From the NCBI GenBank assembly GCA_017439305.1, contig JAFSJK010000082.1:1-51337 (forward strand): 51,337 bases of DNA, read 5' to 3'. The stretch comes from Bacteroidales bacterium (GTDB taxonomy: Bacteria > Bacteroidota > Bacteroidia > Bacteroidales > UBA932). A program made the position numbers and the translations under genes. The stretch's first letter is position 1. Every line of letters starts with the position of its first letter. This document shows, piece after piece, positions 9,561 to 41,167 of this stretch. The notes below the pieces were generated by a model. It made no database searches. It had not been told where the DNA came from and saw only the letters and a program-made list of their open reading frames with translations.

Positions 9561-9593
9561 CCCAAAATCAACAACCATTAATCCTTACACAGT

Positions 9594-10781: not shown

Positions 10782-10792
10782 ACCACCTTTTC

Positions 10793-10823: not shown

Positions 10824-10849
10824 CCGGCAGGGCCTGACCGCCCCGCCGG
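10824..10849 (+). other. Second GC-rich hairpin next to the terminator
   Basis: CCGGCAGGGC pairs with GCCCCGCCGG (one A-C mismatch) around a 6-base loop, starting directly after the T-run of the preceding terminator. It has no T-run of its own. It may stabilise the downstream peptidase mRNA or be part of an attenuation switch; this is inference. Confidence 0.5.
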
Positions 10850-10869
10850 GAACCATATACGACCCATTC

Positions 10870-13143: not shown

Positions 13144-13148
13144 AAACT

Positions 13149-17146: not shown

Positions 17147-17155
17147 ACGCCTCGG

Positions 17156-20068: not shown

Positions 20069-20093
20069 GATGGTTCTCGTTTTAGCGTTTTTC

Positions 20094-20101
20094 CAAAGAT
20101 A
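20094..20101 (-). promoter_or_regulatory. Promoter -7 box of the GH127/GH146-type gene
   Basis: The minus strand reads TATCTTTG, a perfect TAnnTTTG, 25 bases before the ATG at 20068. No clear -33 box at the standard spacing. Confidence 0.55.
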
Positions 20102-20171
20102 ACGCAAAACGGAACATTATTTTGTAAAAATAGTCCGGATGGATAAGAGAATCATCCAAAAGATGGCCGCA

Positions 20172-20645
20172 TCAATACCCGAGCCCCCCGAAAATCTCTT
20201 CCAGTTTCTTCTCCAACTCTGAGAATGCGCCTTCCAGCTTTTCCGTATTGAACAGATTCTCCAGGTATTCCTCGAACTCCCCGGCATGTTCCCCGAGGAC
20301 ATCCGTGAAACCTTCCAAGTACGCAGGAAGGGCTTCTTTCAGTTCTTCCAGGAACGCCGCAGACTGCTCGATCCCGTTTTCGAGAAGGAGGGCGTGATAA
20401 CGGCCGATGGACTTGGCCGCCAGGTCCCTTTCCGCTTTCGTATATCTTTTTCCGGAGGTATGGTACTCCTCCACCAGCTTATCAAACTGGTTCATGGACC
20501 GTTGCCAGTCCGTTGCCTGATAATTGACGCAGAGCTGCTCCGTCCTGTTTACAAATATGTTCAGTTTCTGCGGAACGCTGTAGCGGGAACAGGCACCCGC
20601 TGCAACCAGCATCGCCAAAACAACAAGGACCTTAAAAAATCTCAT
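20172..20645 (-). CDS. Small lipoprotein, last gene of the tubulin/actin-like operon
   Basis: This 157-residue lipoprotein (lipobox Cys19, VAAGACSRYS) is mostly helical, with an acidic C-terminal half rich in Glu/Leu. I do not recognise a function. It shares a clear pattern with the lipoprotein at 41145-41591: NRTEQ/NRVERN near the N-terminus, a conserved Tyr-rich middle, and IGRYHALLLENGIEQ versus IGRYHAILVDHGIKQ. The family may be the Bacteroides DUF6565 group (from memory, unverified). It starts 6 bases after the TM2-protein gene, making it the promoter-distal gene of the nine-gene operon. A TTG two codons upstream would also be in frame; the ATG at 20645 is preferred. Confidence 0.8.
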   Translation of the reverse strand: MRFFKVLVVLAMLVAAGACSRYSVPQKLNIFVNRTEQLCVNYQATDWQRSMNQFDKLVEEYHTSGKRYTKAERDLAAKSIGRYHALLLENGIEQSAAFLEELKEALPAYLEGFTDVLGEHAGEFEEYLENLFNTEKLEGAFSELEKKLEEIFGGLGY

Positions 20646-20651
20646 ATGCAA

Positions 20652-21011
20652 TTACAAAGAAACCTCTTCCTCTTGTTTCTGCTCGATTTCCTCCGGCTTT
20701 TCGACAACCGACCCGACGATAGTGACGGTATTCTGGGGCTGACTGGCCGTGGCAGGGGTCGTATCCTGCCGGGGCGCTTCCCGCACGGGAGGCTTAGCGG
20801 GCGAAGGCGCGACGGACGGAGCCGGTTCGAAATTCTTTCCGCCTGCAACCAGATAATAGAGGGCATCGATCACACCCAGGACCGCAGGGATACCTGTCCA
20901 GCAGAACAGCAGGTAGAGAATGCCCCTCCCCCAATGCTCCAGATAAAAATGGTGGATTCCCAGGCCGCCCAGGAAAAAGGCGAGTACGATGGCGACGGTT
21001 TTGTTTTTCAT
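20652..21011 (-). CDS. TM2-domain membrane protein
   Basis: This 119-residue protein begins with a TM2 domain: a first membrane helix (AIVLAFFLGGLGIHHFYLE, about 6-24), a short turn, and a second (LYLLFCWTGIPAVLGVIDAL, about 31-52). TM2 proteins are inner-membrane proteins of unknown biochemical role. The remaining 60 residues are a Pro/Ala-rich tail ending in a Glu/Gln-rich segment, probably disordered and possibly a docking tail. The gene lies 16 bases after the LRR gene and 6 bases before the terminal lipoprotein gene. The ATG at 21011 is chosen over an earlier in-frame start because it places the first helix at the N-terminus, as in the family. Confidence 0.85.
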   Translation of the reverse strand: MKNKTVAIVLAFFLGGLGIHHFYLEHWGRGILYLLFCWTGIPAVLGVIDALYYLVAGGKNFEPAPSVAPSPAKPPVREAPRQDTTPATASQPQNTVTIVGSVVEKPEEIEQKQEEEVSL

Positions 21012-21027
21012 GACGGGGAGGATAAGA

Positions 21028-22620
21028 CTATAGATTCCACTTGATAATGACAGGATCCGTCGTAGCAAGAGGCACGTCTTCCACAAAGATCTGGACCAGC
21101 AATTTCAACCGGGTCTTTACACCGTCCAGGTGGAATTCGCTGAGAGGAAGGCGCATCCGGAAATCGGAGAACTGGGAGGACGCATATTTCGGCGAAAAGA
21201 CGGCGCTGGAACAAACCTGCCCGTCTATCGTGCAATAGGATCCGTTCCTGTCCTGGACCGGTTTGCCGTTCTCGTGGAAAAGGAACAGGACACATCTCCC
21301 GTTCTTCCCCGCGCAGTTGTTCGCCTTGAAAGAGACGAGGCCATCCAGATAGGCCCCCGCCGAACCCAAACCGCTCTCGAGATGGAAAGAAGAGATACGG
21401 ATACAGGAAGGACCCGTCCAGGAATAGGGGTAGCTCTTTTCCTCTCCGACTTGTTTCCCCTTGGCAAAGAAGGATATGCGCCACTCGAGCTTCTCCGGAT
21501 GGCCGCCCAGATGGAACTCCGTATAGGGCAGGGTCAGGACAATCTGTGAAAACCGGCTTTGGACGAATTTCGGATTCAATTCGGTCCAGACGCCGACCTG
21601 GCCGCCGGACAGGCAGCAGTCATTGTTCATATCCTTCAACGGACTTCCGTCGCTATGGTACAAACGGGCCTCGACACGGACGGGAATCCCTTCCAGGAAT
21701 TTGGTCACGCAAGAAAACAGCAGGGCGACCGACCCTCCGTTCTGAATGGAATACCGGTCCTGGACCGAAATGGTCTCAACCCAGGCATCCGGACGCGTCT
21801 CCTTCTTGATGGAATGCTGTTCCACACTGGACACAAGGGCGGCCAATTCCTTTTTGCGAATGTCGGCGATTTCGGGCGTCTTGGGGGTCACGGGGACTTC
21901 CGGTTCTGCCGGAGCCACGGGTTTTTCCGCGACCGGTTTTTCTGCAGCCGGTTTTGCAGAAACCGGCTTGTCTTTTGTCACCAGGTTGAAAGCCTGCCAT
22001 GCGGAATCTTCCCTGTAAGCGGGCAGGGAACCGACGGTAACCAGGACCTGGCAATCCGGAGCGGAAAGACCGGAAAAGGCCGTCGGATCCACTTCGGGCG
22101 GCGTTTCAGCCCGAAGGGAAATCCGTTTCAGCCGACGGCAGCTCCCGAACGCAAAACGGCCGATCTGCAAGGGCGAAGCGCCCAGGGATACGGACTCCAG
22201 GGAAACGCAATTCATGAACGCCATCTCCCCAATCTCAGCCAACTGATCCGCCGCCCGGACTTCCTCCAGCTGGCGTGCGCCGAAAAAGGCCTTTCCGTCC
22301 ACCCTCCGGAGGCCCTTTGGAAGCACGATGGCCTTCAGCGTCTGCGCCTTGGAGAACATGTAACCGCCGATTTCATCCCGTTCCGTAACCGCACGGGCAT
22401 CCTCGGCAAAACCGCCGGGAACGATCCGGACCCCGGAAAGGTCCAGGCGCTCCAGGACGGGAGCGTGAAGACAATCCTTGCTCCCCTCGCAGCCGCACAT
22501 GCTCCGCAACAAAGTCACATCCGCTCCGTTGATCTCTCCGGAAAGGGCCAGTTCCTTGACATTGGATGTATCCGGAAGTTGCTGGGCAAGTGTTCCGGCG
22601 GTCAATCGCTCAAGCCGCAT
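21028..22620 (-). CDS. Leucine-rich-repeat protein (BspA-like repeats) with two beta domains, no signal peptide
   Basis: This 530-residue protein starts with LRR_5/BspA-type repeats (about 20-205; for example IGEMAFMNCVSLESVSLG and IGRFAFGSCRRLKRISL). A Lys/Pro/Ala/Glu linker with repeated AEKPV units (about 220-250) follows, then two similar beta-rich domains (about 280-400 and 405-530), both with YHSDGSPL/FHENGKPV turns and endings of the TEFHLGG/SEFHLDG type. No signal peptide or membrane segment is visible, so it is probably cytoplasmic and a binding or scaffold component. It begins one base after the stop of the upstream gene, inside the operon. BspA repeats usually occur on secreted proteins, so an intracellular copy is unusual. 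Function unknown. Confidence 0.75.
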   Translation of the reverse strand: MRLERLTAGTLAQQLPDTSNVKELALSGEINGADVTLLRSMCGCEGSKDCLHAPVLERLDLSGVRIVPGGFAEDARAVTERDEIGGYMFSKAQTLKAIVLPKGLRRVDGKAFFGARQLEEVRAADQLAEIGEMAFMNCVSLESVSLGASPLQIGRFAFGSCRRLKRISLRAETPPEVDPTAFSGLSAPDCQVLVTVGSLPAYREDSAWQAFNLVTKDKPVSAKPAAEKPVAEKPVAPAEPEVPVTPKTPEIADIRKKELAALVSSVEQHSIKKETRPDAWVETISVQDRYSIQNGGSVALLFSCVTKFLEGIPVRVEARLYHSDGSPLKDMNNDCCLSGGQVGVWTELNPKFVQSRFSQIVLTLPYTEFHLGGHPEKLEWRISFFAKGKQVGEEKSYPYSWTGPSCIRISSFHLESGLGSAGAYLDGLVSFKANNCAGKNGRCVLFLFHENGKPVQDRNGSYCTIDGQVCSSAVFSPKYASSQFSDFRMRLPLSEFHLDGVKTRLKLLVQIFVEDVPLATTDPVIIKWNL

Positions 22621-22621
22621 A

Positions 22622-24283
22622 TCAATTCCTCATGTATTGTTCCTTCAATTCCAGCAGGCGCGGGTTGTCAGGACGCCACTGAAGCATCTTGCTCAGGTGT
22701 TCGAGCATCTCAGGAGTAAAACGGCCGTGCGTTGCGCGCAGCAGCGTTTCCAGTTGTTCGATACCCTCGTCCACTTCATGGTCGATGGCCGCTTGGATTT
22801 CGTCATTGGCACGATGCAGCCGGCCGTTGATCAGAAAACGCATGAAGCCGGGACGGAAATCATCCCGGGCCTGCCGCAACTGCTGGACCGCCTGGCCGAA
22901 TTCGGCCTGCTCCAGCAGAGGTGCCAGATTGTCCGCCTCCTTGTTGAACCGGTCGACGCTGCCGGTGGTCATCCGGATCAGCACAAGCACCACGATGAGG
23001 GCGGCCAGGACCGAGAATACCTTGGCCCCTTGCTTGAGATTGTACGTGGGCGGGACCTTGGATTTCTCCAGGGCGTCCTGGATCATGCTCTTGCCGTAAG
23101 CCGGCTCCACATGCAGATCCAGCGCAACCTCGAATTTCTTGTCCATCCGGTTGTTCCGGGCCAGGATCTCCCGAAGCTCCTTCTGCGCCGCCTGGATCTT
23201 GCCCGCGTTCTCTTCCATCTGCCGCGCCAGCTCCTCCGCCCGTTCCCGGTCAGCCTCGTTGAAACTGCCGCTCTTCTTGAAGAAGAGGAGGAAACGGCGG
23301 GCACGCACGTCCTTGCAGATTTTCTCCAGGGCTTTCTGCGCTTCGGAATACGCCGGGTAGGCCAGCGCGATCACCTTGTAATTGATCTCGGCTTTTTTCC
23401 TGTCCGAGATGCGCAGGTCCCAGTCGTCCTCGTTGAAGGCATCCACGTAGGGACTGCGGCGCTCCACGGCACTGATGATCTCATTGCAAAGGAACGTGCT
23501 CACACCGCTGTCCATCGCCACTTCCAGGATCGTCCGGTACTCCGGGAACTCCTCCCGCTCCGGGAGAGCGCCCAGCGGTTCGACCATCGACTTGACAAAC
23601 TGGATAAAGCCGCTCAGGTATTCCTCGGCGTTCTTGTCCGTCACGGTCCGCAGCGAACCTCCGTAGGAAGGGTCGTTGTCGACAATCTTCAGCAAGACCG
23701 GTGAATCGACCAGCGTAATCGAACGGAGGATGCCGGTCTTGAAATAGCAGACATCGGCAATCTCTGCCTCTTTCGGCTTGTATGGTTTTCCGTTGCGGTA
23801 CAGGTTGAACAATTCCACCTCACCCCGGCCGATGGGCATGGAGACCGACTCCAGGATATCGCCGGGAGCGAGAGTACTCCGGTTCGTGGACAGGACATAG
23901 AAACGCTGGCGTCCCACATAGACCAGAACCGTGATGGAGCCGTTTTCTTCTTCGATCTGAAGCTCCTGCAGCGGCTTTAACCCGTTATCGCCCGCATTGG
24001 AGACGGAATCCACTGCGGACCGCTTTGGCGCGGCGCTGTTCCGCTCCTTGCACACCTGGGCGACCATCTGGTTGCACAGGTCACGGTCAAAGTGATAGTC
24101 CGTCTGGCCGATGGTATAGATGGCATCCCAGTCCGTCCCGAAGCGCGGGTTCAGATAGGGGTCGGCAAAGGTATGGTCCGCACCCTTGTATACCCCCAGG
24201 TCAGAAACGGAATGTTCGATAATGAACTTGACGAACGCTTCCGGTATGGCAACCGTCCGTCCGTCAAACACAACAGAACTCAT
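22622..24283 (-). CDS. Unknown protein with coiled coil and single membrane anchor
   Basis: This 553-residue protein has no signal peptide. The first roughly 320 residues are globular and unrecognised. A charged coiled-coil region (about 335-395, ending NNRMDKKFE) precedes one strong membrane helix (FSVLAALIVVLVLIRM, about 422-440). After it come about 110 residues rich in helices (LLEQAEFGQAVQQLRQAR..., MLEHLSKMLQWRPDNPRL), resembling TPR-like repeats. The topology is therefore a large cytoplasmic N-domain and a small periplasmic C-domain. Its ATG overlaps the stop of the preceding coiled-coil gene by 4 bases, so the two are probably made together. It could link cytoplasmic NTPases to the periplasm (inference). 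Confidence 0.75.
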   Translation of the reverse strand: MSSVVFDGRTVAIPEAFVKFIIEHSVSDLGVYKGADHTFADPYLNPRFGTDWDAIYTIGQTDYHFDRDLCNQMVAQVCKERNSAAPKRSAVDSVSNAGDNGLKPLQELQIEEENGSITVLVYVGRQRFYVLSTNRSTLAPGDILESVSMPIGRGEVELFNLYRNGKPYKPKEAEIADVCYFKTGILRSITLVDSPVLLKIVDNDPSYGGSLRTVTDKNAEEYLSGFIQFVKSMVEPLGALPEREEFPEYRTILEVAMDSGVSTFLCNEIISAVERRSPYVDAFNEDDWDLRISDRKKAEINYKVIALAYPAYSEAQKALEKICKDVRARRFLLFFKKSGSFNEADRERAEELARQMEENAGKIQAAQKELREILARNNRMDKKFEVALDLHVEPAYGKSMIQDALEKSKVPPTYNLKQGAKVFSVLAALIVVLVLIRMTTGSVDRFNKEADNLAPLLEQAEFGQAVQQLRQARDDFRPGFMRFLINGRLHRANDEIQAAIDHEVDEGIEQLETLLRATHGRFTPEMLEHLSKMLQWRPDNPRLLELKEQYMRN

Positions 24284-25119
24284 AAGCAGGCGATTTTCAC
24301 CTTCGAGACCACCACCCAGGCATCGTCATCCCGCTCAACGCGACCGGGCTCGACAATCTCGATGCTCGAATAATTCTCGGGAGAGCCCTTGACCACTTCG
24401 CACGCGCCGATGATGCTGCGGAATGCCGTGGGATTCAGGTCCGGAACCAGAGAGAACTCCGCCTCCGTCTTCGACTTCGTGTTGATGACAGCCGTGGAAT
24501 TCGCCTTTCTCTCCTCGGAAAGGAACTCGACGGAGAAACCCTTGACACTCTCCTTGTAAGCGGCATAATAAGTCTTGGGCCTGGCCGCCTCTTCTTCGGC
24601 TTCACGCTGGCGACGGAAATCCTCTTCCTTGGCAGCCAGTTCATCCTGCATTGCCCGGACCTTCCGCTCCTGCTCTGCCATAAAAGCGTCCTGCTGGTCC
24701 TGGAGGATAGCCTGCACCTTACCGGGAAGGGCTTTTTCAAGACTGTTCAGGCGGGCTTCCAACTGGAAATAATCCGTCTTGCGCTGGTTGATCCGCTCGT
24801 CCAAGGCGTGCTTCGCTTCCTTGATAGCCTTCTGGTCCAGCAAATACACCGCGACGGCGGCAACGAGCGCCAGGCAGGAAAGGACAAGTTCCCAAGGGAT
24901 GTTGAGGGGCGTTTTTTCTACCGGCTCGTCTTCTTGGGCAGTGTTGGAATCAGCCTCCGCAGCAGCGTTATTCATGTTGGAAGAATCTTGTGCCGTCACT
25001 GTCGTTGAATCCTGGGCAGAAGTATTGGTCTGTGTCGTGTCGGCTTGTGCAAAGGAGACACAACACATCGTCACCAAGAGGAGGAGGGCGACGCCCCAAC
25101 GGATGATTCTATTATTCAT
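24280..25119 (-). CDS. Membrane-anchored coiled-coil protein of unknown function
   Basis: This 279-residue protein has an N-terminal signal peptide (about 1-25, ending SFAQA) and a low-complexity Thr/Ser/Asn/Gln/Asp stretch (about 26-70) that would be periplasmic. A membrane helix (LVLSCLALVAAVAVYLL, about 77-94), a long Lys/Glu/Gln coiled coil (about 98-175) and a C-terminal domain of about 100 residues follow, the last two on the cytoplasmic side. No family recognised. It lies 9 bases after the giant ATPase gene and overlaps the next gene by 4 bases. Coiled coil plus membrane anchor suggests an adaptor between the cytoskeletal-type NTPases and the membrane. Confidence 0.75.
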   Translation of the reverse strand: MNNRIIRWGVALLLLVTMCCVSFAQADTTQTNTSAQDSTTVTAQDSSNMNNAAAEADSNTAQEDEPVEKTPLNIPWELVLSCLALVAAVAVYLLDQKAIKEAKHALDERINQRKTDYFQLEARLNSLEKALPGKVQAILQDQQDAFMAEQERKVRAMQDELAAKEEDFRRQREAEEEAARPKTYYAAYKESVKGFSVEFLSEERKANSTAVINTKSKTEAEFSLVPDLNPTAFRSIIGACEVVKGSPENYSSIEIVEPGRVERDDDAWVVVSKVKIACL

Positions 25120-25128
25120 GGCTCAAAC

Positions 25129-28100
25129 TCATTTGACATAAAAATTGGACAACTTGATGAAGAGGTTCCGCATGGCAAGGAAGAACAGGTTCTCCTTGGC
25201 GTCTTCATTCCTGTCAACCTGATGGCGGTTGTTGAACAGCTGCTTCTGGGTATCGAAACTTTCCTCAGCAAAACGGAGGATGCGGGTCATGTCATTTTCC
25301 GACGCGAAAGCATTCGCATCGTCCGGATTCCCGATGATGCCGGTCATGTATTCCTTCAGGATCTTGGAAGAATTCCGGGCGCGGAAAAGGGAAGAGACGT
25401 AATCCTTGACCTTCTCCATCACCATGGCCCGCGTCGCATCGTTCCTGACCTGTTCATTGAGCAGGCTTCCTGCCTTCTCATCCACCACATCCTTCTTATA
25501 GCCCAGGATATCCTGGCTGTAGTCATAATGGATATACTTCTCCCGCTGCACGGTCGAAGTGTTCCCCAAGTCGCTCAATGCGCCGATTGAAACATCAAAG
25601 TCATCCTCATCCACGGCTTTCAGGGTAATCTGGCAATCCGGGTTCATGCTGTAGATACCGCCGTTCGCCGTCAGCTCCTTCGGATTGGCCGGGAAATAGA
25701 CGGAGAACTGCCTGATCTCGATGCCGAAGGCTTTCAGCATCTCGCTGGTCAGGCGTGCGATTTCGGCCTCGTCGCCCAATAGCTTGATATACTCACTACC
25801 CTTTCCGGTGAAGGTGAGGATTTCGGGCATCCGGAAGTTATCGTTCCTGAAGCGGATGTATTTCAGGAAATCGGACAGATAATAGACGATGGACGAATAG
25901 TGCAGGAACATCACGAACCGGAGGTTCTGGTTCATCTTCACGTTGCCGCCGAAATTGAACTCGTTGTACTTGAAGAAGAAACTCACCAGCTGGTCCGCCG
26001 GTTTGTCCTTGTAGTTCGTCTCGTACACGCGCTTGAGTTCGCCGTCCTTGAAATGATAGTTTCCGGACTGGATCAGGTTCATCATATAGGAGACGAACCC
26101 GTTCTTGCTCCGGCGGCGCTCCTCCAGGGAGCGGGCGTCATCCTCGATGCCCCAGAGCTGGTTGCCGGCGAACAGGATGGAGGACTCGAAAGCCCGGCCG
26201 GTCTCCTGGAAGCCCAGGCTACCCTTGTCCAGCACGAAGATATCGGTCGTACCGCCACCGATATCGATGTTCACAGAATTGCGGGTGAATATCTGCTGGC
26301 CCACGCCGGGAAGGGCGATCAGGGAGTAGTACGGAGCGATAGCCTCCATGATGGGCGGTTCAACCGTCAGTTTGAAGTTGAATTTCGTCCATACTTCCTC
26401 GCTCTCCTCTTTCCAAATCTGCTGGAAGGACCTCTGGTCGGTCACCGACATACTGCCCGGATAGAAGTAAACGAACCGGTTGCCCTCCAGGCCGATGTTC
26501 TTGATGATGACCATGTTCTTGAGCATCCAAAGGGTCTGCTTGCAGAAGGCGCGGATCCGGGCCTCGTCCAGCTGGGTCTCCGAATTGTTCCCGTCGCTGC
26601 GGTGCTTCATCGCCTGCCACTTCAGGTCCTCCTGATAATTGAAAAGCTGCGTGTCCAGCCGGGTGAACTCGTTGTCGATGTCGTATCCGATATTGATGGT
26701 CTCGAACAGGTTCCGGGATCCGGTCGCATTGCGGAACTTGGCGGATTCCAGGGTGGCGGTCTTGATCGGATACTTCACGGAAGACCGGTCTTCGCGGTTG
26801 GCCGACAGGCCGATGACGGAGGGAACCGTCTCCTTCCAGAAGGACTGGAGTTCGGCGCCGACATCTCCGAAGGACTCGCGGTGCCGGTAGTCGGGATCGG
26901 ACGCATCCCGCTTGTTCAGGAACACGAACTGCCGCTCTTGATCCGGAATCGAGAACGGAACGACCGACTCGGACCGGCCGTCCGACGTGTCCAGATAGGC
27001 GACGTGGGTGTTGGACGTACCGAAGTCCACGGAAAGGACCGTCGGTTTCTGACGGAGAACCTGCGGAAGGGCCTTCATCCAGACGGGAATGACCAGGCCA
27101 TGGTCCTCCCGGGTGGAAGCTTCGGAGCGGGGAATGTCCACGCTCAGGAGAGAGAACTTGTTGCAGGCGTAGGAATTGAACTCGTTCCGGTTCTCCAGGT
27201 TATATACCTTGGAGATACCCTGACCGTTCGTGACCGTACGGGAGAATTCCGGAACATTCACGGGGAACAGGCCCTTCTTCCCTTCTTCGTCGCTCTGGAA
27301 ATAGAACGAGAGGGATGCTTCCTTCTTCTCCGTCTCTCCCACGTGTGAGAACAGGTATACCGAATAGGCGTTGGTATAATAATCGCCCACCGGATTCTTC
27401 TCGTTCAACTGGTAGAACGGAAAGATGCCCACATCCAGACCGCTTTCAAAGTAGCGGATCGGATAAACGCCCTTCGGAAGACCGAAATTGTCCTTGCTGC
27501 GGTCCTCGGGGCGGGGACGCTGGTATTTGCGCTGGAAAGTGAGCGTCCGGTCTGCCTTCAGTGGAATCGTGAGCGTGAAGACCACGGCCGTCGGGATGCC
27601 GGAACGGTTGCTGTCCGTATACCGGACGGAGAGGTTTTTCCGCAGTGTTTCCGGCTTGAAATAATCAAAGAAAGCCTTCTTGACCGGCAGCAGGAACCGG
27701 AAGTTGTCCTCACCCTGCGGGATGACGAACCGGTTGCCGTCCACCGTGAATCCCAGGTCGACCAGGGTGTCCTCGAACAGGTCCATGTCCGTCAGCCAGG
27801 GGTACTTGATGTTGGTCATCTCCCCGGCCGCTCCGTTCTGGGGAAGGCTGCGCTTCATCGGGTCGGGGTTCGTCATCAGATACATCTCCGTGATGACGGT
27901 ATCCATGCTCCAGGGCTCATCCTCGCTGATGTACGCCCAGTGGTTGATTCCCGTCGTGACGGTATCCCGGGAGGGAAGGACCAGCGGAAGGACGTCCTTT
28001 CCACAGACATCCATGTCCGGATGGATGGTGAAATAGCTTTTTTCCGCAATCGGAGGACGTTTGGCGTTGAAGCGGAGGACGATCTTCGCCCGGTTGCCGT

Positions 28101-28956
28101 CCTTGGTCTGGACCGGGACCTCCAGGTTCCGGACCGGATGGAAATTCTTTTCGAAACCGGCTTCGGCGAAATCGACGTCCCCGCATTCCTGCCTCACATA
28201 CTGGAAGAAACTGTATAGCGGAGACCGCATTCCAGTCACCTCCTCGGGGGCTGTCCGGTAGATTCCGTACAGGTACTCCTTGAAATCGGCAGGACGGGAA
28301 CGGAGAGGTACATACTTGCCGGCCGCATCAAAGAAACGGTACACCTTCCGGTCGATCCGGAAGTTGGACGTCAGATAGTCGGCCCGACCGTCTTTCTGCC
28401 GCTCGGCCTCCACCTCGTCCCGGAGATTCGCCCCGGTATAGACCAGGTTGAAGGGAGACGTTCCGCCCAGCAGCATCCCGTCGAAATAGATCAGGTTGAT
28501 CTGCTGGTCCTGGCCGAATTCACTGCCGGAACCGAAAGCCAGCTCCAGGGACTTACCCAGCAGCCGCTTCTCCTCGCTGCCCGAATTCTTCAGGGAACGG
28601 ATCACGCTCGCTCCCTTCCAGGCCAGCACCTTCAGTTTCGAAGTCTGGGACGAATCTTCATCCACGCCGTTTTCGAAGATCATCTGCAAGAGGTCCAGGG
28701 CGTCATTCACCAGTCCCTGGTAGACCTCGTTCCGGGCACTCACGTGCGAAGCCATGAACTCGAAAGCGGCATTGAACAGATAGATGCGGGCAAGGGGCGT
28801 CGGGATGGAGGTGCCCACCTTGCTCAGGTTGCCGATGTTGGAAAGCGTGTCCGGAATGTCCTTGATCGTCGCTTCCGTCACCTGCGAACGCTTGTACCAG
28901 CCATTCTGGCTCTGCTCGGCGTCGCTGCTGAAAAGATTGAAGATATATGATGCCAT
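25129..28956 (-). CDS. Giant actin/Hsp70-superfamily ATPase with large unknown N-terminal region
   Basis: This 1275-residue protein has no signal peptide. The C-terminal half carries the three actin/Hsp70/FGGY nucleotide motifs in order: phosphate-1 SVDFGTSNTHVAYLD (Asp644, GTSN 646-649), phosphate-2 NIDIGGGTTDIFVLD (Asp898, GGG 900-902, Asp905) and adenosine motif LTFTGKGSEYI (GKG 1051-1053). The interval between phosphate-1 and phosphate-2 (about 250 residues) is larger than in actin. Residues 1 to about 635 match nothing I recognise. Such ATPases polymerise or act as nucleotide switches. Size and layout recall virulence-factor SrfB-type proteins, which are known from memory only. It lies 11 bases after the tubulin-like gene and is central to the operon. 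Confidence 0.85.
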   Translation of the reverse strand: MASYIFNLFSSDAEQSQNGWYKRSQVTEATIKDIPDTLSNIGNLSKVGTSIPTPLARIYLFNAAFEFMASHVSARNEVYQGLVNDALDLLQMIFENGVDEDSSQTSKLKVLAWKGASVIRSLKNSGSEEKRLLGKSLELAFGSGSEFGQDQQINLIYFDGMLLGGTSPFNLVYTGANLRDEVEAERQKDGRADYLTSNFRIDRKVYRFFDAAGKYVPLRSRPADFKEYLYGIYRTAPEEVTGMRSPLYSFFQYVRQECGDVDFAEAGFEKNFHPVRNLEVPVQTKDGNRAKIVLRFNAKRPPIAEKSYFTIHPDMDVCGKDVLPLVLPSRDTVTTGINHWAYISEDEPWSMDTVITEMYLMTNPDPMKRSLPQNGAAGEMTNIKYPWLTDMDLFEDTLVDLGFTVDGNRFVIPQGEDNFRFLLPVKKAFFDYFKPETLRKNLSVRYTDSNRSGIPTAVVFTLTIPLKADRTLTFQRKYQRPRPEDRSKDNFGLPKGVYPIRYFESGLDVGIFPFYQLNEKNPVGDYYTNAYSVYLFSHVGETEKKEASLSFYFQSDEEGKKGLFPVNVPEFSRTVTNGQGISKVYNLENRNEFNSYACNKFSLLSVDIPRSEASTREDHGLVIPVWMKALPQVLRQKPTVLSVDFGTSNTHVAYLDTSDGRSESVVPFSIPDQERQFVFLNKRDASDPDYRHRESFGDVGAELQSFWKETVPSVIGLSANREDRSSVKYPIKTATLESAKFRNATGSRNLFETINIGYDIDNEFTRLDTQLFNYQEDLKWQAMKHRSDGNNSETQLDEARIRAFCKQTLWMLKNMVIIKNIGLEGNRFVYFYPGSMSVTDQRSFQQIWKEESEEVWTKFNFKLTVEPPIMEAIAPYYSLIALPGVGQQIFTRNSVNIDIGGGTTDIFVLDKGSLGFQETGRAFESSILFAGNQLWGIEDDARSLEERRRSKNGFVSYMMNLIQSGNYHFKDGELKRVYETNYKDKPADQLVSFFFKYNEFNFGGNVKMNQNLRFVMFLHYSSIVYYLSDFLKYIRFRNDNFRMPEILTFTGKGSEYIKLLGDEAEIARLTSEMLKAFGIEIRQFSVYFPANPKELTANGGIYSMNPDCQITLKAVDEDDFDVSIGALSDLGNTSTVQREKYIHYDYSQDILGYKKDVVDEKAGSLLNEQVRNDATRAMVMEKVKDYVSSLFRARNSSKILKEYMTGIIGNPDDANAFASENDMTRILRFAEESFDTQKQLFNNRHQVDRNEDAKENLFFLAMRNLFIKLSNFYVK

Positions 28957-28967
28957 ATCTGCCTGTT

Positions 28968-30509
28968 TTATTTTCTGACCTTGAACAACTCCTTGTTAGC
29001 GGTGAGCTCCCACAATCCCAGCGAGAATATCTTCATGAAAATCTGGGTATTGGACATTCCGCTCCCCTCCTGGGGAATCGGAGAGAACTGGAGCGCGACG
29101 TTTTTCCGGATCGTCGAGTAGATGTCCTTGGACGAAGGCCGTTCCGCATTGAAGAGCACGAAATGGTCCAGGTCTTTCGAGAAATCATACGGAGAGAAGG
29201 TCAGCTGCTCGTTCGTCGCCATCTCGTCCGACCACACTGCGAAGGCCTCCTGGAAGGACTCCAGCAGCTTGCCGAAATCGGTGGACCGGGAAATGTCGCT
29301 GCCCACCCGGCGATAATAGGTCTGCGGGGAGTTGAACACGCCGGCGCCGTCGTCTTTCTTGGGCGTGTAGACATACTCGTCGCAATACTTCTTGAAGAAG
29401 GCGAACGCATTCATCGGACGGACATACCGGTTGTACACCTCGTTCGTGCCCGTCTCGTTGCTCACATTGACGGCGGAGAGCACGTCCAGCATGCAGCCGT
29501 CCGGCTCGAACCCCTGGGCGGAGCCATATTCATATTCCGAGAGGATTCCCGGAGCGTGCGGCGTGCCGGGGTGCTTGGCGAATTCGACGATGCTCATGGC
29601 GGACAGGAGTTCCACCAGGTGCGCCTTGTTCCGCTGCTCGCTGCCGCCTTCCACATTCTTGTACGTACCTTTCCGGGCGTTGCAGCCGATGTAATAGATT
29701 TCGTCCAGCTTGTCGTTGACCTCCTTCTGGTAATAGGAAAGGGCCGCCTTGGACTTGGACACGTTCAGGTTGGAGTTGATCTGGCTCTTCTCGTTTCCTT
29801 CCACATTGAAGTAAGGGAGGATGATACAAGTGCCGATCCGGCAGTTCCGGATGGCGTTTTTCTCGCAGGAACGGAGGTTCTTCACCAGCTGGGGAATACC
29901 CGTCGACCCGGTGCCGCCGAAGATGGAACCGACGATGAACACCTTGTCCGGCGTGGTTTCATCCGTCGAGAAACTGTTGTAGAACGTCCTGTAGGTCTCC
30001 GTCCCGAAGAACTTGTTGAACACGACGCTGCCGATGTTGGGGTTTCCCTTGAAGCCCAGCTTCAGGGAAAGCTCCAGTTCCTGTTTGCTCTTGACCTTCG
30101 AGGCGCTGTACAGGCTGCGGATGAAGTCCTGGGTCGGGTCGTCGTCCGACTGGTTCAGGTTGTCATAGTTGATATAATTGCCGAAAGTCGCATTCGGGTA
30201 CTCCCGGCCCATCTCCACGAAGGAAAGGGAAGAATCGGCGGGATTGTTTCCCAGCATCGTCAGGGCGCCGTTGAAGAAAAGATGGTCCTTCTCCTCTCCG
30301 GGAATGTCCTTGATGATCTTGTTGAACTGCACATACTGGTCCATCAGCGCCTTGGTCCGGACCAGGTCGCCGTTCTCAATGTCATAGTCCACCAGGATGG
30401 GCACGATCTCGTTGCCCTTCCCCAGGTCCACGCCAGACGCCATCAGAAAAATCAGGGAGCGGAGCGTACGGGCTCCGGACCCCCCCACGAAATACACGAA
30501 AGTCCTCAT
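28968..30509 (-). CDS. Tubulin/FtsZ-superfamily GTPase-like protein
   Basis: This 513-residue protein has an N-terminal glycine motif (VYFVGGSGARTLRSL, about 5-19) like the first nucleotide loop of FtsZ/Tubulin_2 proteins. It also has the tubulin signature as SIFGGTGSTGIPQL, with GGTGSTG at residues 198-204, about 25 residues before a strand and loop ILPYFNVEGNE (230-240) that parallels the FtsZ KPF.FEG segment. It is too divergent and too long to be the cell-division FtsZ. I cannot identify a T7 catalytic loop by eye, so GTP hydrolysis is uncertain. It probably forms filaments or switches in the cytoplasm. Gaps of 6 and 11 bases join it to the small membrane protein and the actin-like ATPase. 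Confidence 0.85.
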   Translation of the reverse strand: MRTFVYFVGGSGARTLRSLIFLMASGVDLGKGNEIVPILVDYDIENGDLVRTKALMDQYVQFNKIIKDIPGEEKDHLFFNGALTMLGNNPADSSLSFVEMGREYPNATFGNYINYDNLNQSDDDPTQDFIRSLYSASKVKSKQELELSLKLGFKGNPNIGSVVFNKFFGTETYRTFYNSFSTDETTPDKVFIVGSIFGGTGSTGIPQLVKNLRSCEKNAIRNCRIGTCIILPYFNVEGNEKSQINSNLNVSKSKAALSYYQKEVNDKLDEIYYIGCNARKGTYKNVEGGSEQRNKAHLVELLSAMSIVEFAKHPGTPHAPGILSEYEYGSAQGFEPDGCMLDVLSAVNVSNETGTNEVYNRYVRPMNAFAFFKKYCDEYVYTPKKDDGAGVFNSPQTYYRRVGSDISRSTDFGKLLESFQEAFAVWSDEMATNEQLTFSPYDFSKDLDHFVLFNAERPSSKDIYSTIRKNVALQFSPIPQEGSGMSNTQIFMKIFSLGLWELTANKELFKVRK

Positions 30510-30515
30510 AGTGCG

Positions 30516-30968
30516 CTATTTGCCAAAAGGAATCAGATTGGTGCCGTGCGGGCCCCAACGCTTGATGATGATCGAGAAAAGGAAGAAGAAAACCAGCGCA
30601 TAGATGGCGGAATTCGCAGCGACGAGCCACATGTCCAGCGTCCCGGAAGCGGCCGTAGTTTCCGCCAGCGGGTCGATGGAGATCAGGTCATTGTCTATGA
30701 TATACTTGACAATCATCCCCTTTGCGACAAAGAAAACCGCGAAAAAGCACACCACCGCATTGAGGAACATCGTCAGATAATAATGGACGTTTGTCAGCGC
30801 GGGCTTGATCAGGGTCAGCACGAAGTAGAACAGGATGACAAACAACAGTGAAATGCCCAGCGTCATCAGGAACGAAAGGGTCAGGCCGCCGGATGTTGCA
30901 TACCAGGGAATCCATATGTCACCCGATGTCTGCAGAACGCTTGTCAGAAGAAAGTAAATCTTTTCCAT
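30516..30968 (-). CDS. Small multi-pass inner-membrane protein
   Basis: This 150-residue protein has probable membrane helices at about 29-53 (LSFLMTLGISLLFVILFYFVL), 65-82 (LTMFLNAVVCFFAVFFVA) and 114-136 (AIYALVFFFLFSIIIK). A stretch of about 30 residues between the last two (IDNDLISIDPLAETTAASG) is exposed. No family recognised. The gene lies between the vWA-like lipoprotein (15-base gap) and the tubulin-like gene (6-base gap). It could be a membrane anchor or channel for the system. Confidence 0.75.
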   Translation of the reverse strand: MEKIYFLLTSVLQTSGDIWIPWYATSGGLTLSFLMTLGISLLFVILFYFVLTLIKPALTNVHYYLTMFLNAVVCFFAVFFVAKGMIVKYIIDNDLISIDPLAETTAASGTLDMWLVAANSAIYALVFFFLFSIIIKRWGPHGTNLIPFGK

Positions 30969-30983
30969 TATATTGATTATTAG

Positions 30984-32471
30984 TTATTTCTTGATAATTT
31001 TGACCGGGATGTCAATGGCGGCATTGAGATTATCCGGCCGTATTCCCTTCCCAAGCAGCATGGCGCGGATGAGAGCATCCAGGCAGAAGGTGTCCTCGTC
31101 GTTTCCTCCGCCTACCGTATCATCCGCACAGGATTTCTGGAGATACCATTCATCCAGGATACCGCCCAGGCTGATGTTGATGTCCATGTCCTGTCCGAAT
31201 TTGGCCGCCAGTTCGGGAGAAACCTGGAGATCCAGGATATACGTCCCGAGAGCAGGGTTGTCCGCATGCAACCCCTGCAGGAAACCGTCTGCCGGAAGCG
31301 GAATGCCGGAAGCAGGATCCTTGTATTGGAACGTCAGGTTGGCCTGGAGGTAGTTCTCGTCATTGACAAAGGCAGGAAGGTCACGGACGCTCATCCGCAG
31401 GCGGAAATTCACCGGAGCCTGGACCCGGGACGGCATGATTACCGAATTCTGGGCGGGGACGATATTCACCTTTTCAGTGTTCTGGGAACCCATCAACTGG
31501 CCCTTAGTGAGGGTCTTGTACCCGCCGGCCTCATAGGAAGCGAGACGGTCTGTGAAACGGAAATTGGGTTCCTTTTCCACTTTCTGGGCGAACTCGGTCA
31601 GATGGTCGGCCGCTCCGAACAGGAAGATAAAGAAAGGACGGGGCGAGCCATTCAACTTATGCGTCTTGTTGTGATAGTCATAATAAACGCCGGAGAATTC
31701 ACCGTCGAAACGATACACCAGGAAATCGACTTTCTCCTGAGAGGAGACCGCATCCCTGATCCGCTGTTCAATCAGAGGCAGATGCTTGAGCGTGAATTCC
31801 GGATCCCGTTTGGTTTCCTGGCTGGTACCGCTGATGATTCCGTCGGTAATCACACAGGAAACCGTCTGGACGTTATCCGCCGCCATGGCGATGGCTGTGG
31901 CGAAAATCTGGTCCAGCGGGGAACTTTGCCCGACGAGGATCTTTCCGTTCGCCAGATTGCTGTCGAAGGTGTCCTTCGCAACTGCGGTCAGAACCTGGGC
32001 GTGCTTGGCATTCTCCCCGATATAGGCCGTTTCAATGGACACGTCCTTGGTCACGCCGTTGTACAAAGCGATGATCGGGCGGGTAAAGGTGCTGGTACCG
32101 GACTTGAAATAGCCTTGCATGCTCATGGAATTCTCCAGCATGACCACCAACCGCTCCAGCGGAACCGTGTTTTTGACGTACTTCTTCAACACGGCGGCCG
32201 GCTCGGAAATGCCCTTGCCGACAAAATACAGGGCGAGTTCCTCTTCGTTATGGATGGGTGTACGGACACCAGCATCATTGATCGTCACGATACCGGCTTT
32301 CTGTACCAAGGCAAGGGCCGACACAAATTCCGCGTCATTGACCTGCTGGTCCACCATGGCGGTACGGATGGCCTTGATGGCTTTCTGCTCTTTGGAATTG
32401 GACGAGCAGGCTCCCGTGAAAAGACAGATCACCAGAAGCGGGACAAGGCCGTTCTTCATCAGTTTATTCAT
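30984..32471 (-). CDS. Lipoprotein with degenerate vWA-like domain, first gene of the operon
   Basis: This 495-residue lipoprotein (lipobox Cys22, LFTGACSSN) contains a vWA-like fold (about 105-290). Strand one is LVVMLENSMSM, where the DxSxS metal site reads ENSMS (Glu113, Ser115, Ser117), and a later strand is VSCVITDGIIS with an Asp typical of vWA domains. The C-terminal third is beta-rich. With Glu for Asp the metal site may be weakened. vWA domains usually mediate protein interactions. Location is the periplasm or outer membrane via lipid. It heads the nine-gene operon, transcribed from the promoter at 32498-32505, and is divergent from the beta-barrel gene at 32545. Confidence 0.75.
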   Translation of the reverse strand: MNKLMKNGLVPLLVICLFTGACSSNSKEQKAIKAIRTAMVDQQVNDAEFVSALALVQKAGIVTINDAGVRTPIHNEEELALYFVGKGISEPAAVLKKYVKNTVPLERLVVMLENSMSMQGYFKSGTSTFTRPIIALYNGVTKDVSIETAYIGENAKHAQVLTAVAKDTFDSNLANGKILVGQSSPLDQIFATAIAMAADNVQTVSCVITDGIISGTSQETKRDPEFTLKHLPLIEQRIRDAVSSQEKVDFLVYRFDGEFSGVYYDYHNKTHKLNGSPRPFFIFLFGAADHLTEFAQKVEKEPNFRFTDRLASYEAGGYKTLTKGQLMGSQNTEKVNIVPAQNSVIMPSRVQAPVNFRLRMSVRDLPAFVNDENYLQANLTFQYKDPASGIPLPADGFLQGLHADNPALGTYILDLQVSPELAAKFGQDMDINISLGGILDEWYLQKSCADDTVGGGNDEDTFCLDALIRAMLLGKGIRPDNLNAAIDIPVKIIKK

Positions 32472-32497
32472 ACTGTAGCGGGTTTTGTTTCAAATGC

Positions 32498-32505
32498 CAA
32501 ATATA
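32498..32505 (-). promoter_or_regulatory. Promoter -7 box of the nine-gene operon
   Basis: The minus strand reads TATATTTG (TAnnTTTG), 26 bases before the ATG at 32471. It lies only 14 bases from the divergent -7 box at 32520-32527, so both directions may respond to the same regulator. Confidence 0.6.
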
Positions 32506-32519
32506 CTAAATAATTTTTG

Positions 32520-32527
32520 TAATTTTG
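32520..32527 (+). promoter_or_regulatory. Promoter -7 box of the repeat/beta-barrel gene
   Basis: TAATTTTG matches TAnnTTTG and lies 17 bases before the ATG at 32545. It is divergent from the operon promoter in the same AT-rich gap. Confidence 0.6.
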
Positions 32528-32544
32528 CCCCAAATTCAACGCAT

Positions 32545-34779
32545 ATGAAAAAGATCCTTTCCGTTTTGTTCTTATTCATGATATGCCTGGCCGGACCCGT
32601 CGCCGCCTCTGCCCAATCCGACTATAAAAGTTTTGTGAAGAATGGCGACCATGCCGTCTCCAAGAGCGACTACGTCGAAGCGGTGAAGCAGTACGACGGC
32701 GCCCTGGCGATGATGAAAATGAAGAAGATGAATCCGAATTCCGTCGAGTATCTGGAAGTCCAGAAAAAACTGAACAACGCGAAGGATTGCATCGCCTGGA
32801 ACAAGGCAGTCAAGGACGGCATCTCCGACCTCTCCGAAGACAGGATCCTTGCCCGTTTCGAGAGGGCGGTCAGCGAAGAGGACATGGACCGGATCAAGAA
32901 CGAACTGCTCGAAAAAGTCCGCAAGGTCAGGGCCAACGCCGACAATATTGTCCGGCGTTTTCCCACGGACAAGATCGCAAAGGGAAGGAAGGACCAATGC
33001 GACCGGCTCGCCGCGAAGATCAATGATGCCCGGGAAAGCCAGGAAGAACTGCTGGTCTGGGTCCGCTACCGCGACCGCCGGTCCCTCGAAGCCTACGACG
33101 ACTTCCTTTCCCAGTACCCCAACGGAAAATACAGCCAGGCGGCGAAAGACTCGATCCGCTCCATCCAGGAGAACCAGGCCTGGGCCTCCATCCGTTCCTA
33201 CGCCACCGAATCCTTGATGCAGGAGTACATCCGGAACTTCCCCGAGGGAAAACACATTGCGGAGGTCAAATCGCAACTGGCACAGTATCAAGCCCGCAGG
33301 CAAGACGAAAATGCCTGGGAAGAGGCGGTCCGTACCGGATCTTCGACCGCCTTCAGGCGCTATTCCACCCAGTTTCCCCAGGGCTACCACCGGAGTGAAG
33401 CCGACAGACGCTATCAGGAGGCACTCGTGAAAGAGGATGACAACGCCTGGGAGGAAGCGGAAAGTGCATCCACGGTGGCCGCCTACAAGGACTATCTGTC
33501 AAGATATCCCCAGGGACGGCATACCGCCGATGCCCGGAAAGGCCAGGACCGCGTCAATGACCGGAAACTGTGGGAAAGATACAGCAAGACCGATACCAAA
33601 GAAGCCTATGGGGCCTACCTGAACGAAACCAAGATGAACCTCTATGCTTCCGAAGCCCGGAAACGGATCAGTGAGATCGAAGCGGCCGAAAGGCAGGCGG
33701 AAGATGACGCACTCTGGGCCGCAGCCGTCAAGTACAATACGGTGGAAAGTCTTCAGAATTACTTGCGCACGAGCCGTCTCAAGACGCACGAAAAAGAGGC
33801 AAACAAACAGATCAGCGTGAAAAAGGCCCGGGCATTGAATGCTGCGGGGAGCGATCCGGAAAAGCTGGTGGAAGCCTATGCCGAAGCCGAAGCGCTGGGC
33901 GCGCTGGAACCCCAGGACCGCGTGGATTATTACAACGCGAAGGATGAGGCCGCCCATGCCCGGTACAAGCAGAACCCCACCGTCGAGCAAGGCAAGAAAT
34001 ACATCGCCAGTTTCCCCGACGGCAAACACTTCGCCGATGTTTCCGATGCCATTGCCATGGCCCTGGCCGACCGGTTTGCCTGGCAGGCGCTGGAAAGGGA
34101 CTATCAGGCGGCGTACGCGTATGCCGTTTCGCCCAAGGCGAAATCCTACGTGGACGAGCAGCACGAAAAGGTCCGGAAGGAACATGAGAAGGAACTCCGG
34201 AAGATTCAGCGGCAGAACAGCCGGGAAGCCCTCCACTTCCTGATGGGCGTCGGCGTCGAGACGGTTTTCGACGAGTTCTCCACCTTCACGAACAGCCTTG
34301 GCAACGGGATGATTCCCAACTTCGGGATGAAAGCGGCGCTCAGCCTGGGGGGCCACAGCAACCGCTTCAACCTCGAGCTGGCCGGAACCCTGTACAATTC
34401 CCTGGAATCGGAACTCTTCGGCCCGGCGAATCCATATTACAAGTTCCGCGTCTCCGCCACGCCGAAAGTGAACGTCATCAAGAAGCAAAATCTGGGAGGC
34501 GAGTATTCACTCGGATATCTCTATTTCGGTCCGGAGGTGTCCTATGACATCTATGCCGAAGATTCCGGTTTTTCAAAGCCCTGCCTGTCTGTCGGCGGAA
34601 AAGTCGGCTTTGGCCTGACCCTGTTCGATTTCTATGTCGGCTACCATTACATTGTCTCCGGCTCCGACCAGTACTACAGCAGGTATGATTCGGTCAACGA
34701 CGTCTATTATTACGATGATCTCCGGGCTCCCGGTCATTATCTGTCATTCGGCATCATGATGTACCTGGGCAGCAAATAG
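32545..34779 (+). CDS. Periplasmic TPR-like repeat protein with C-terminal outer-membrane beta-barrel
   Basis: This 744-residue protein has a signal peptide (to SAQS, about 24), then helical repeats (about 25-560). Several carry the pattern Y..FLSQYPNGKYSQAAKDSI / YIRNFPEGKHIAEVKSQL / YSTQFPQGYHRSEA / YLSRYPQGRHTADA / YIASFPDGKHFADV, i.e. TPR-like units of about 60-70 residues. The last 180 residues are beta-strand rich (FLMGVGVETVF ... YLSFGIMMYLGSK), typical of a small outer-membrane barrel. So it would be barrel-anchored with a long periplasmic arm. It is divergent from, and closely spaced to, the tubulin/actin-like operon, making it a good candidate for its outer-membrane partner. The ATG at 32545 is chosen for the signal peptide and the -7 box upstream. 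Function unknown. Confidence 0.8.
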   Translation: MKKILSVLFLFMICLAGPVAASAQSDYKSFVKNGDHAVSKSDYVEAVKQYDGALAMMKMKKMNPNSVEYLEVQKKLNNAKDCIAWNKAVKDGISDLSEDRILARFERAVSEEDMDRIKNELLEKVRKVRANADNIVRRFPTDKIAKGRKDQCDRLAAKINDARESQEELLVWVRYRDRRSLEAYDDFLSQYPNGKYSQAAKDSIRSIQENQAWASIRSYATESLMQEYIRNFPEGKHIAEVKSQLAQYQARRQDENAWEEAVRTGSSTAFRRYSTQFPQGYHRSEADRRYQEALVKEDDNAWEEAESASTVAAYKDYLSRYPQGRHTADARKGQDRVNDRKLWERYSKTDTKEAYGAYLNETKMNLYASEARKRISEIEAAERQAEDDALWAAAVKYNTVESLQNYLRTSRLKTHEKEANKQISVKKARALNAAGSDPEKLVEAYAEAEALGALEPQDRVDYYNAKDEAAHARYKQNPTVEQGKKYIASFPDGKHFADVSDAIAMALADRFAWQALERDYQAAYAYAVSPKAKSYVDEQHEKVRKEHEKELRKIQRQNSREALHFLMGVGVETVFDEFSTFTNSLGNGMIPNFGMKAALSLGGHSNRFNLELAGTLYNSLESELFGPANPYYKFRVSATPKVNVIKKQNLGGEYSLGYLYFGPEVSYDIYAEDSGFSKPCLSVGGKVGFGLTLFDFYVGYHYIVSGSDQYYSRYDSVNDVYYYDDLRAPGHYLSFGIMMYLGSK

Positions 34780-40604: not shown

Positions 40605-41167
40605 ACCGCGAGTCTCTCTTCTCAGGCCTGCTGATCGGCCTGGGGGCCACCGGCTATCTGGCGCTCGGAGGGATTCCGGGCGCCGTGATCTTCGCTTTCG
40701 GACTCGTGTGCGTAGTGCTTTTCGGTGTACCGCTGTATACGGGAAAGGCCGGCGTCACGAACGACATTCCGGCCCTGGTCAAGATCTGGCTGTTCAACAT
40801 CATCGGCTGCGCCCTGCTGGGCCTGCTGGTGTTCTCCCTCGGCGGAGCGCCCGTGGAGCGAGCACAGGACATGGTGGCGGGACGCCTCGCCCAGGGCCCG
40901 TGGCGGAGCTTCCTCCGCGCCGTGGGCTGCGGCCTCATCATCGACATCGCCGTCTGGCTGTACAAAAACAAGGGGTCCATCCTCCCGATCCTGTTCGGCG
41001 TCCCCTTGTTCATCGTGTGCGGCTTCTACCACTCCATCGCCGACGTGACGTACATCGTCGCAGCCTGGACGTGGACGCCCGACCTGCTGTGGTATTATCC
41101 GCTGATCGTGCTCGGCAACTACGTCGGCTGCAACGTGCGCCGCGTTACTCTGCCAGCCGCTTCCTGA
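40601..41167 (+). CDS. Compact formate/nitrite-transporter (FNT)-like membrane protein
   Basis: This 188-residue protein has six probable membrane helices: SLFSGLLIGLGATGYLAL, GAVIFAFGLVCVVLFGVPLYTG, ALVKIWLFNIIGCALLGLLVF, FLRAVGCGLIIDIAVWLY, LPILFGVPLFIVCGFYHSIAD and WYYPLIVLGNYVGCNV. The glycine pattern and LYTGKAG after helix 2, and the GFYHSIADV loop, fit FNT channels that pass small monovalent anions, but it is short compared with typical FNT proteins of about 260-280 residues. The ATG at 40601 overlaps the pepP stop (ATGA). It converges on and overlaps the next minus-strand gene by 23 bases. Confidence 0.75.
   Translation: MNRESLFSGLLIGLGATGYLALGGIPGAVIFAFGLVCVVLFGVPLYTGKAGVTNDIPALVKIWLFNIIGCALLGLLVFSLGGAPVERAQDMVAGRLAQGPWRSFLRAVGCGLIIDIAVWLYKNKGSILPILFGVPLFIVCGFYHSIADVTYIVAAWTWTPDLLWYYPLIVLGNYVGCNVRRVTLPAAS

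Follow-up and report, generated by a model that had tools for sequence, protein, structure and literature searches.

A nine-gene operon pairing a tubulin-like protein with a giant actin-like ATPase in a Bacteroidales bacterium, and the recurrence of this pair in other bacteria

We analyzed a 51,337-nucleotide contig of a Bacteroidales bacterium (GenBank assembly GCA_017439305.1, contig JAFSJK010000082.1; this whole stretch is called the window here), in which nine tightly spaced minus-strand open reading frames (positions 20172 to 32471; genes A to I) encode, among other proteins, a tubulin-like protein (C) and a giant actin-like ATPase (D). A further gene, U, diverges from A. An earlier note, made from the sequence of the window, had proposed an envelope-spanning machine with both types of cytoskeletal nucleoside triphosphatase (NTPase) in one operon. 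Many bacteria have the C-D pair, with the two genes almost always adjacent, and the operon is therefore probably a real machine of the cell envelope. The recurring neighborhood bore out that both NTPase types belong to a single conserved operon that also encodes membrane proteins, lipoproteins, and, in relatives, stator parts of the peptidoglycan-binding type. The pairing is a widespread module and is not peculiar to this genome.

Loci were collected by two routes: 393 genomes of the order were searched with D, and named species genomes were searched with C, from which the best 80 of at least 582 relatives were taken together with five contigs from viral collections. Because the pattern used in the second route was the C motif, C was guaranteed there and D was not. 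The profiles of C and D each matched in all 85 of these loci (the best 80 plus the five viral-collection contigs), whereas A was matched in 80 of them and B in 75. In 101 of 102 loci, the window included, D follows C immediately and in the same orientation; three of the 102 (L054, L084, and L089) are places fetched twice. In the exception (L128), C is broken in two, and its second piece is followed by D. Ten loci were added later, and D was adjacent to C in five of them (L139, L140, L141, L144, and L148, with L139 being the place of L074 again), while the contig ended in two (L142 and L145); the remaining three are considered below. In the usual core, A and B lie upstream of C, and D and E lie downstream.

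The same association was seen at the level of genomes. At an E value of ≤1e-3, D matched 314 of the 393 genomes, but the weak matches listed were mostly FtsA sized, so we applied a threshold of <1e-20, chosen after viewing the list. With this cutoff, C was present in 23 genomes and D in 23: both were found in 22 genomes, C only in 1, D only in 1, and neither in 369 (Fisher P = 9e-34). D lies at a contig end in the D-only genome (G354), and in the C-only genome (G052) C is truncated and its contig is short. Homologues of the two NTPases thus co-occur in other genomes, as the earlier proposal required, with the pair recurring across Bacteroidota and on cyanobacterial plasmids.

The identification of C as tubulin/FtsZ-like held by Pfam. 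The window protein matched the Pfam family Tubulin_2 (PF13809) with 30.8 bits, passing the cutoff of 27, and matched PF00091 below the cutoff of 33 (E value of 0.014, 16.1 bits). Among 17 C proteins (the window plus 16 other genomes of the order), matches at an E value of ≤0.1 were found for PF00091 in 17 and for PF13809 in 16, and the nucleotide motifs are conserved in C homologues. The FtsZ and MreB proteins of the window genome itself are encoded elsewhere (contigs C69 and C16), and C and D are therefore additional proteins.

D consists of an N-terminal part of about 600 residues followed by the ATPase part, which carries the motifs VDFGTSN (residues 643 to 649), DIGGGTTD (898 to 905), and FTGKG (1049 to 1053). 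In a set of 16 homologues that includes the window protein, residues of the phosphate-1, phosphate-2, and adenosine motifs are fully or almost fully conserved, even though the identity of these proteins to window D is only 16 to 24%. When the D profile was compared with Protein Data Bank (PDB) chains, MreB was the best match (1.3e-5), followed by Hsp70 ATPase domains (0.015 and weaker) and exopolyphosphatase (0.061). An hhalign comparison with MreB proteins of relatives gave an E value of 1e-6 across 35 columns, and 8 of the 16 D members matched Pfam FtsA (best, 0.013). The conserved motifs and the MreB matches uphold the earlier view of D as an actin/Hsp70-type ATPase. SrfB proteins are large proteins with actin-like motifs. 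The relation to SrfB (PF07520) that the same note had raised was too weak and was rejected: it was matched by 3 of the 16 homologues (best E value of 0.011, below the cutoff), and window D had no match at 0.1.

The other core genes encode parts of the cell envelope. In a simple hydropathy scan, B had three helices, E two hydrophobic segments, and F one (residues 422 to 440), and A and I had an N-terminal signal/lipobox-like segment; the scan found no hydrophobic segment in C, D, or G. These calls agree with the earlier descriptions of B as a three-helix membrane protein, of E and F as membrane anchored, and of I as a lipoprotein. No Pfam family exceeded its cutoff for A, B, D, E, F, or I of the window. 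The description of A as a vWA-like lipoprotein is putative. In its favor are the lipobox and a variant metal ion-dependent adhesion site (ExSxS) with a later conserved Asp; among 92 A proteins, the motif was ExSxS in 77, DxSxS in 7, QxSxS in 3, and absent in 5, a lipobox was found by a simple rule in 56, and the N terminus was hydrophobic in 79. Matches to the vWA family itself were weak or absent: the window protein had none in Pfam, 1 of 11 homologues had a weak one (0.052), and the PDB gave none, as described below.

The B proteins share a short tail. A PF ending was seen for 46 of the 82 distinct B proteins compared with 1 of 1,512 other proteins of the loci, and P[FW] occurs within the last 22 residues in 62 of the 82 compared with 42 of the 1,512 (3 of 31 among small membrane proteins). 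Both patterns were chosen after inspecting the sequences; an NIP motif was also considered for this tail and dropped (18/91). E is defined by a conserved C-terminal domain, the profile of which matched window E with an E value of 1.1e-14 and was found in 91 proteins in 80 loci, with 71 at position +2 from C. In one locus (L045, 9201 to 12698), this domain is fused to the end of D. In another (L033, 506 to 2050), a single protein contains a lipobox, a DxSxS motif, and a three-helix B part (B profile match, 2.7e-20). Because the A profile misses this protein, its vWA part was read by motif, and we read the whole as an A-B fusion. Physical contact is best supported by the D-E fusion and, with less certainty, by the L033 protein, and the fusions and the conserved B tail together suggest one membrane-tied complex. 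If the vWA part of the L033 protein is periplasmic and the three helices follow it, then the tail of B would be cytoplasmic.

We consider it reasonably probable that the products of the operon form a complex that is tied to the membrane, spans the envelope, and contains two proteins of cytoskeletal type driven by nucleotides. The gene pairing, motifs, topology signals, and fusions described above are read directly from the sequences, and from them we infer a scheme of nucleotide use, filament assembly, docking, signal direction, and output. A would sense or bind a target, either periplasmic or located at the outer membrane, and B would be its transmembrane partner, with a cytoplasmic tail that perhaps docks C. 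C, with GTP, and D, with ATP, would co-assemble on the cytoplasmic face, where E would use its C-terminal domain to tether D to the inner membrane. In many relatives, this core would be joined by a proton stator that resembles ZorA/ZorB and belongs to a peptidoglycan-gripping type, and a secreted protease or nuclease would serve as the output. In the stator-less clade of the window, F and the outer-membrane-like U would probably bridge the envelope, and H and I would act as accessories.

Evidence for the additions in relatives came from the genes that follow the core. ZorA-like or ZorB-like genes were found there in 54 of 98 nonduplicate loci other than the window, with both present in 50. The ZorB-like family matched PDB chains 8vvn_B (MotB related; 4e-15) and 8qyd_F (5e-8), the sequence of the latter being present also in the ZorAB entry 8qyk. 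The one member scanned matched the PADLOC ZorB1 model (5e-12), the family has an invariant Asp in its membrane helix, and its C terminus is OmpA-like by a weak Pfam match (0.005, below the cutoff). This assignment is firm at the sequence level. The ZorA-like assignment is less firm: the profile matched the ZorA chain of 8qyk at 2e-4 over positions 136 to 201, ranking below some coiled-coil matches, and 14 of 43 members matched the PADLOC ZorA2 model, with coiled-coil-type models matching too. Of the 84 loci in which four or more genes could be seen downstream of D, 41 have hydrolase-type genes on the same strand, no more than seven genes away. They are trypsin-like in 18, retropepsin-like in 17, and of the NS-endonuclease, SNase, and EEP types in 7, 5, and 3, respectively (Pfam was checked with one member per family, and the EEP member fell below its cutoff). 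The N terminus was hydrophobic in 56 of the 62 members of these five families (18/18, 17/18, 13/13, 4/8, and 4/5). By family profiles, the window has neither a stator (no match to ZorA-like or ZorB-like families at an E value of ≤1) nor such a hydrolase. Beside the module in L115, we also noticed a stretch (19144 to 20247) that by eye resembles a formylglycine-generating (FGE-sulfatase) domain.

These additions invite a reading as an anti-phage or intercellular conflict system similar to Zorya, in which an envelope disturbance would be sensed, the NTPases would assemble, and a secreted nuclease or protease would be released or activated. The frequencies of stator and hydrolase genes just given speak for such a system, and so does the patchy distribution of the module, with C in 5 of 101 same-genus genomes (own included) and copies in different clades. 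The window itself, however, lacks both additions and is bordered by polysaccharide-utilization genes, and no phage record matched C of L037 when used as the query. A search of PADLOC-DB with its nine proteins and U gave nothing convincing (best, 0.013, for I against the ZorA1 model), and ZorC, ZorD, and ZorE had no PADLOC match at 0.1 in these ten proteins (they were not sought in relatives). There was no defense island enrichment either: at 1e-20, 110 of the 302 flank proteins, taken as a sample, matched 8 PADLOC models (one member each), compared with 26 for 110 of 187 control proteins from six genomes. We regard the conflict system as possible, though less likely than not. A wider form of it is rather doubtful, namely, that a widespread obligate envelope machine of tubulin-like and actin-like proteins, often powered by a Zorya-type motor and equipped with swappable secreted nucleases or proteases, would constitute an unrecognized surveillance or conflict class, of which the window would be a stator-less variant with an outer-membrane-like component. 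A membrane-remodeling or vesicle-forming system, as Makarova and Koonin predicted for FtsZl1 operons (PMC2875224), would share the pairing of FtsZ-like and vWA-like proteins, the many membrane parts, and the OmpA-type partners seen in relatives as the ZorB-like C terminus. Stators and hydrolase genes would be superfluous for remodeling, and we rate this explanation as rather doubtful also.

The two NTPases could also regulate partners without forming filaments, D as a chaperone- or enzyme-like ATPase and C as a GTP switch, in a manner that may also apply to the tubulin and HSP70 proteins occurring in the systems of PMC7159879. The Hsp70 and exopolyphosphatase matches of the D profile are in line with this, and the best Pfam match of D members is Ppx-GppA. 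The top PDB matches of D are nevertheless MreB, and Pfam found no GrpE, DnaJ, or P-loop GTPase among the nine proteins; we consider this alternative unlikely. That the nine genes are an accidental neighborhood is very improbable, and for A to E it is disfavored by the co-occurrence statistics and the fusion; F and U occur together in another genome of the genus (G491) as well. It would fit G best. Several observations weigh against the envelope-spanning complex with two cytoskeletal-type proteins. C stands without D beside it in three of the ten later loci (L143, L146, and L147). The A profile retrieved no solved vWA structure from the PDB, with one unrelated chain at 0.28, and fails to detect the L033 protein. 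Alignment of C with the FtsZ proteins of relatives by hhalign was not significant (probability of 0.2%, E value of 0.3), although it nonetheless aligned the GGTG loop. Ppx-GppA, matched by 8 of the 16 D members (best, 3.3e-6), is an enzyme family, and either C or D may act without filaments. Finally, the place of G in the system is given by its operon position and is otherwise unsupported.

The nearest published work is the 2010 paper on FtsZl1 and the 2020 paper on GTPase-centered systems. The former described FtsZl1-vWA operons as predicted membrane-remodeling systems (Makarova and Koonin, PMC2875224), and the earlier note was right to point to comparative-genomics work of this kind. In the parts of that paper available to us, those operons likewise link a protein of the FtsZ/tubulin superfamily with membrane proteins, in some cases with OmpA-type proteins, and with a vWA protein, of which A is the putative counterpart; an alignment legend includes Bacteroides caccae and cyanobacteria. 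Here, by contrast, the tubulin-like protein has a giant actin-like ATPase as its constant partner, and no actin partner is named in those parts. P-loop GTPase, kinase, and OmpA genes are frequent, not universal, in FtsZl1 operons, and Pfam found no match to any of them among the window nine. The GTPase-centered systems (PMC7159879), in the parts available, likewise place tubulin homologues near vWA proteins, one kind having the vWA protein outside the membrane, and one passage combines GTPases with tubulin homologues and an HSP70 protein. Tubulin and HSP70 appear in those parts as nonoverlapping themes, with tubulin in Firmicutes and Actinobacteria. These systems center on TRAFAC GTPases and GAP1, whereas the window operon has no GTPase match in Pfam.

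Many relatives of the window operon resemble Zorya in carrying ZorB-like genes, with the invariant membrane Asp, and ZorA-like genes beside the core, whereas the window has neither ZorA nor ZorB. To our knowledge, tubulin, actin, and vWA parts do not belong to Zorya. The words tubulin and FtsZ occurred zero times in a word search of the available text of PMC11890865. No C-D pairing was found in the available parts of that paper or of PMC2875224, PMC7159879, PMC5898192, and PMC12505986; the literature searched did not extend to most subscription papers, all bioRxiv preprints, or the 2010 supplementary tables.

Bacterial homologues of tubulin and actin are usually studied in separate systems or where they meet as FtsZ with FtsA. 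A conserved module that almost always sets a tubulin-like protein beside a giant actin-like one, in addition to the FtsZ and MreB of the cell, would be a new place to study cooperation between the two families. With it, a system known only from predictions in the accessible parts of the published work would also gain an actin partner, a stator, and hydrolase genes. The question is testable because cultured strains carry the module, with records from Parabacteroides distasonis An897, Pedobacter, Spirosoma, Chitinophaga, and others.

The window copy of C belongs to a seven-copy clade in which stator matches are absent. A quick tree of 104 rows gave this clade a support of 98. After 28 distant, long-branched, or near-identical rows had been dropped, a careful tree of the remaining 76 gave 100/99. 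The sister of the window copy is from the same-genus genome G491, in which the order A-B-C-D-E-F is followed by a U homologue. Far outside the order, plasmids of Picosynechococcus PCC 73109 and Gloeothece PCC 7822 encode C (3e-62 and 6e-61, respectively) followed by D (1.5e-50 and 5e-37). An A homologue is present on both (3e-7 in Picosynechococcus and 1.6e-19, on the other strand, in Gloeothece), and each has a small protein, hydrophobic by eye, in the place of B, which the B profile did not match. D is annotated as a hypothetical protein in these plasmid loci (L161 and L163). With C of L037 as the query, 6 of 72,556 plasmid records matched, one of which is a 1.77-Mb replicon. The patchiness of C within the genus and the placement of the window and G430 copies in different clades suggest that the module has spread by horizontal transfer. 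Five records labeled Acetatifactor, Williamsia, Clostridium, Oscillibacter, and Sulfuricurvum (L073, L081, L095, L119, and L127, respectively) have C among the Bacteroidota copies, possibly as a result of misbinning or transfer. A distant C-D subfamily (L034, L046, L047, L048, L132, and L148) has no A or B matches at the usual places, and C of L147, without an adjacent D, belongs to the same clade.

The features of the operon are listed in Table 1. From A to I, the intergenic spacings are 15, 6, 11, 9, -4, 1, 16, and 6 bases, with H and I measured from their likely ATG starts, and the earlier account of nine minus-strand genes with gaps of no more than 16 bases and one 4-base overlap was accurate. 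The promoter claimed in that account was partly upheld. The candidate element TATATTTG lies on the minus strand exactly at the place given (32505 to 32498) and fits the Bacteroidota -7 consensus; no well-spaced -33 box was noticed upstream of it, and a scan for sigma-70 promoters gave 7 matches against a shuffle mean of 5.4, which is no clear excess.

Table 1. Operon genes, divergent gene U, and the intergenic region between A and U (window positions)
Feature	Position	Strand	Basis
A: 495-aa vWA-like lipoprotein	30984-32471	-	variant MIDAS ExSxS (E113, S115, S117), D210, lipobox Cys22
B: 150-aa three-helix membrane protein, short C-terminal tail (...LIPFGK)	30516-30968	-	hydropathy; tail motif
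C: 513-aa tubulin-like protein (FtsZl1/Tubulin_2 type)	28968-30509	-	PF13809; GGTGSTG at residues 198-204
D: 1275-aa giant actin/Hsp70-superfamily ATPase	25129-28956	-	motifs; MreB profile matches
E: 279-aa membrane protein, conserved C-terminal domain	24280-25119	-	two hydrophobic segments; domain profile
F: 553-aa protein, one transmembrane segment (422-440)	22622-24283	-	sits where other loci have stator genes
G: 530-aa LRR_5 protein, two-copy C-terminal domain	21028-22620	-	Pfam LRR_5 7e-16
H: TM2-domain protein	20652-21086 (likely ATG ~21011)	-	Pfam TM2 8.5e-18
I: small lipoprotein	20172-20651 (likely ATG ~20645)	-	N-terminal signal/lipobox-like segment
U: divergent 764-aa secreted protein	32485-34779 (likely ATG ~32545)	+	helical repeats; C terminus outer-membrane-barrel-like by eye
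A-U divergent intergenic region	32472-32544	.	contains TATATTTG at 32505-32498, minus strand

The genes downstream of E vary in how far they accompany the module. F is rare, with matches in 2 of the 393 order genomes at an E value of ≤1e-3 (own included); outside those 393, G491 has a homologue directly after E (L141; phmmer, 2e-58). The U homologue in G491 directly follows that of F (2.9e-32), and U was added to the system because of this arrangement. U matched no Pfam family, and nothing in the PDB matched it better than 0.3. Matches to it were found in 8 of 101 same-genus genomes at an E value of ≤1e-3 (own included), of which only that in G491 is strong, the six others being weak and partial. 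The earlier description of G as a leucine-rich repeat (LRR) protein is supported by its Pfam match, but no convincing homologue beside other copies supports its membership of the operon. Its C-terminal domain is present in two copies that are 35% identical, and a profile of this repeat domain matched no other protein of the loci. An LRR protein near L061 was rejected as a homologue, as its match reflects generic secreted LRR repeats and it lies six genes from C, and comparison of the G repeats with zinc-ribbon accessory proteins gave no match. The TM2 domain claimed for H was confirmed by Pfam. H had no phmmer match in other loci; a gene annotated as TM2 likewise lies downstream in the plasmid operon of Picosynechococcus (L161). 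The family of I adjoins the module in L140, L103, L091, L078, and L061.

The operon is flanked in the window by polysaccharide-utilization genes (1362 to 20107 and 43840 to 45525), which include those for a hybrid two-component regulator, SusD, DUF6055/DUF4859, GH127, and GH31. A second small lipoprotein gene of the I family (profile match, 3.5e-54) lies on the minus strand at 41145 to 41591, about 9 kb from the start of the operon.

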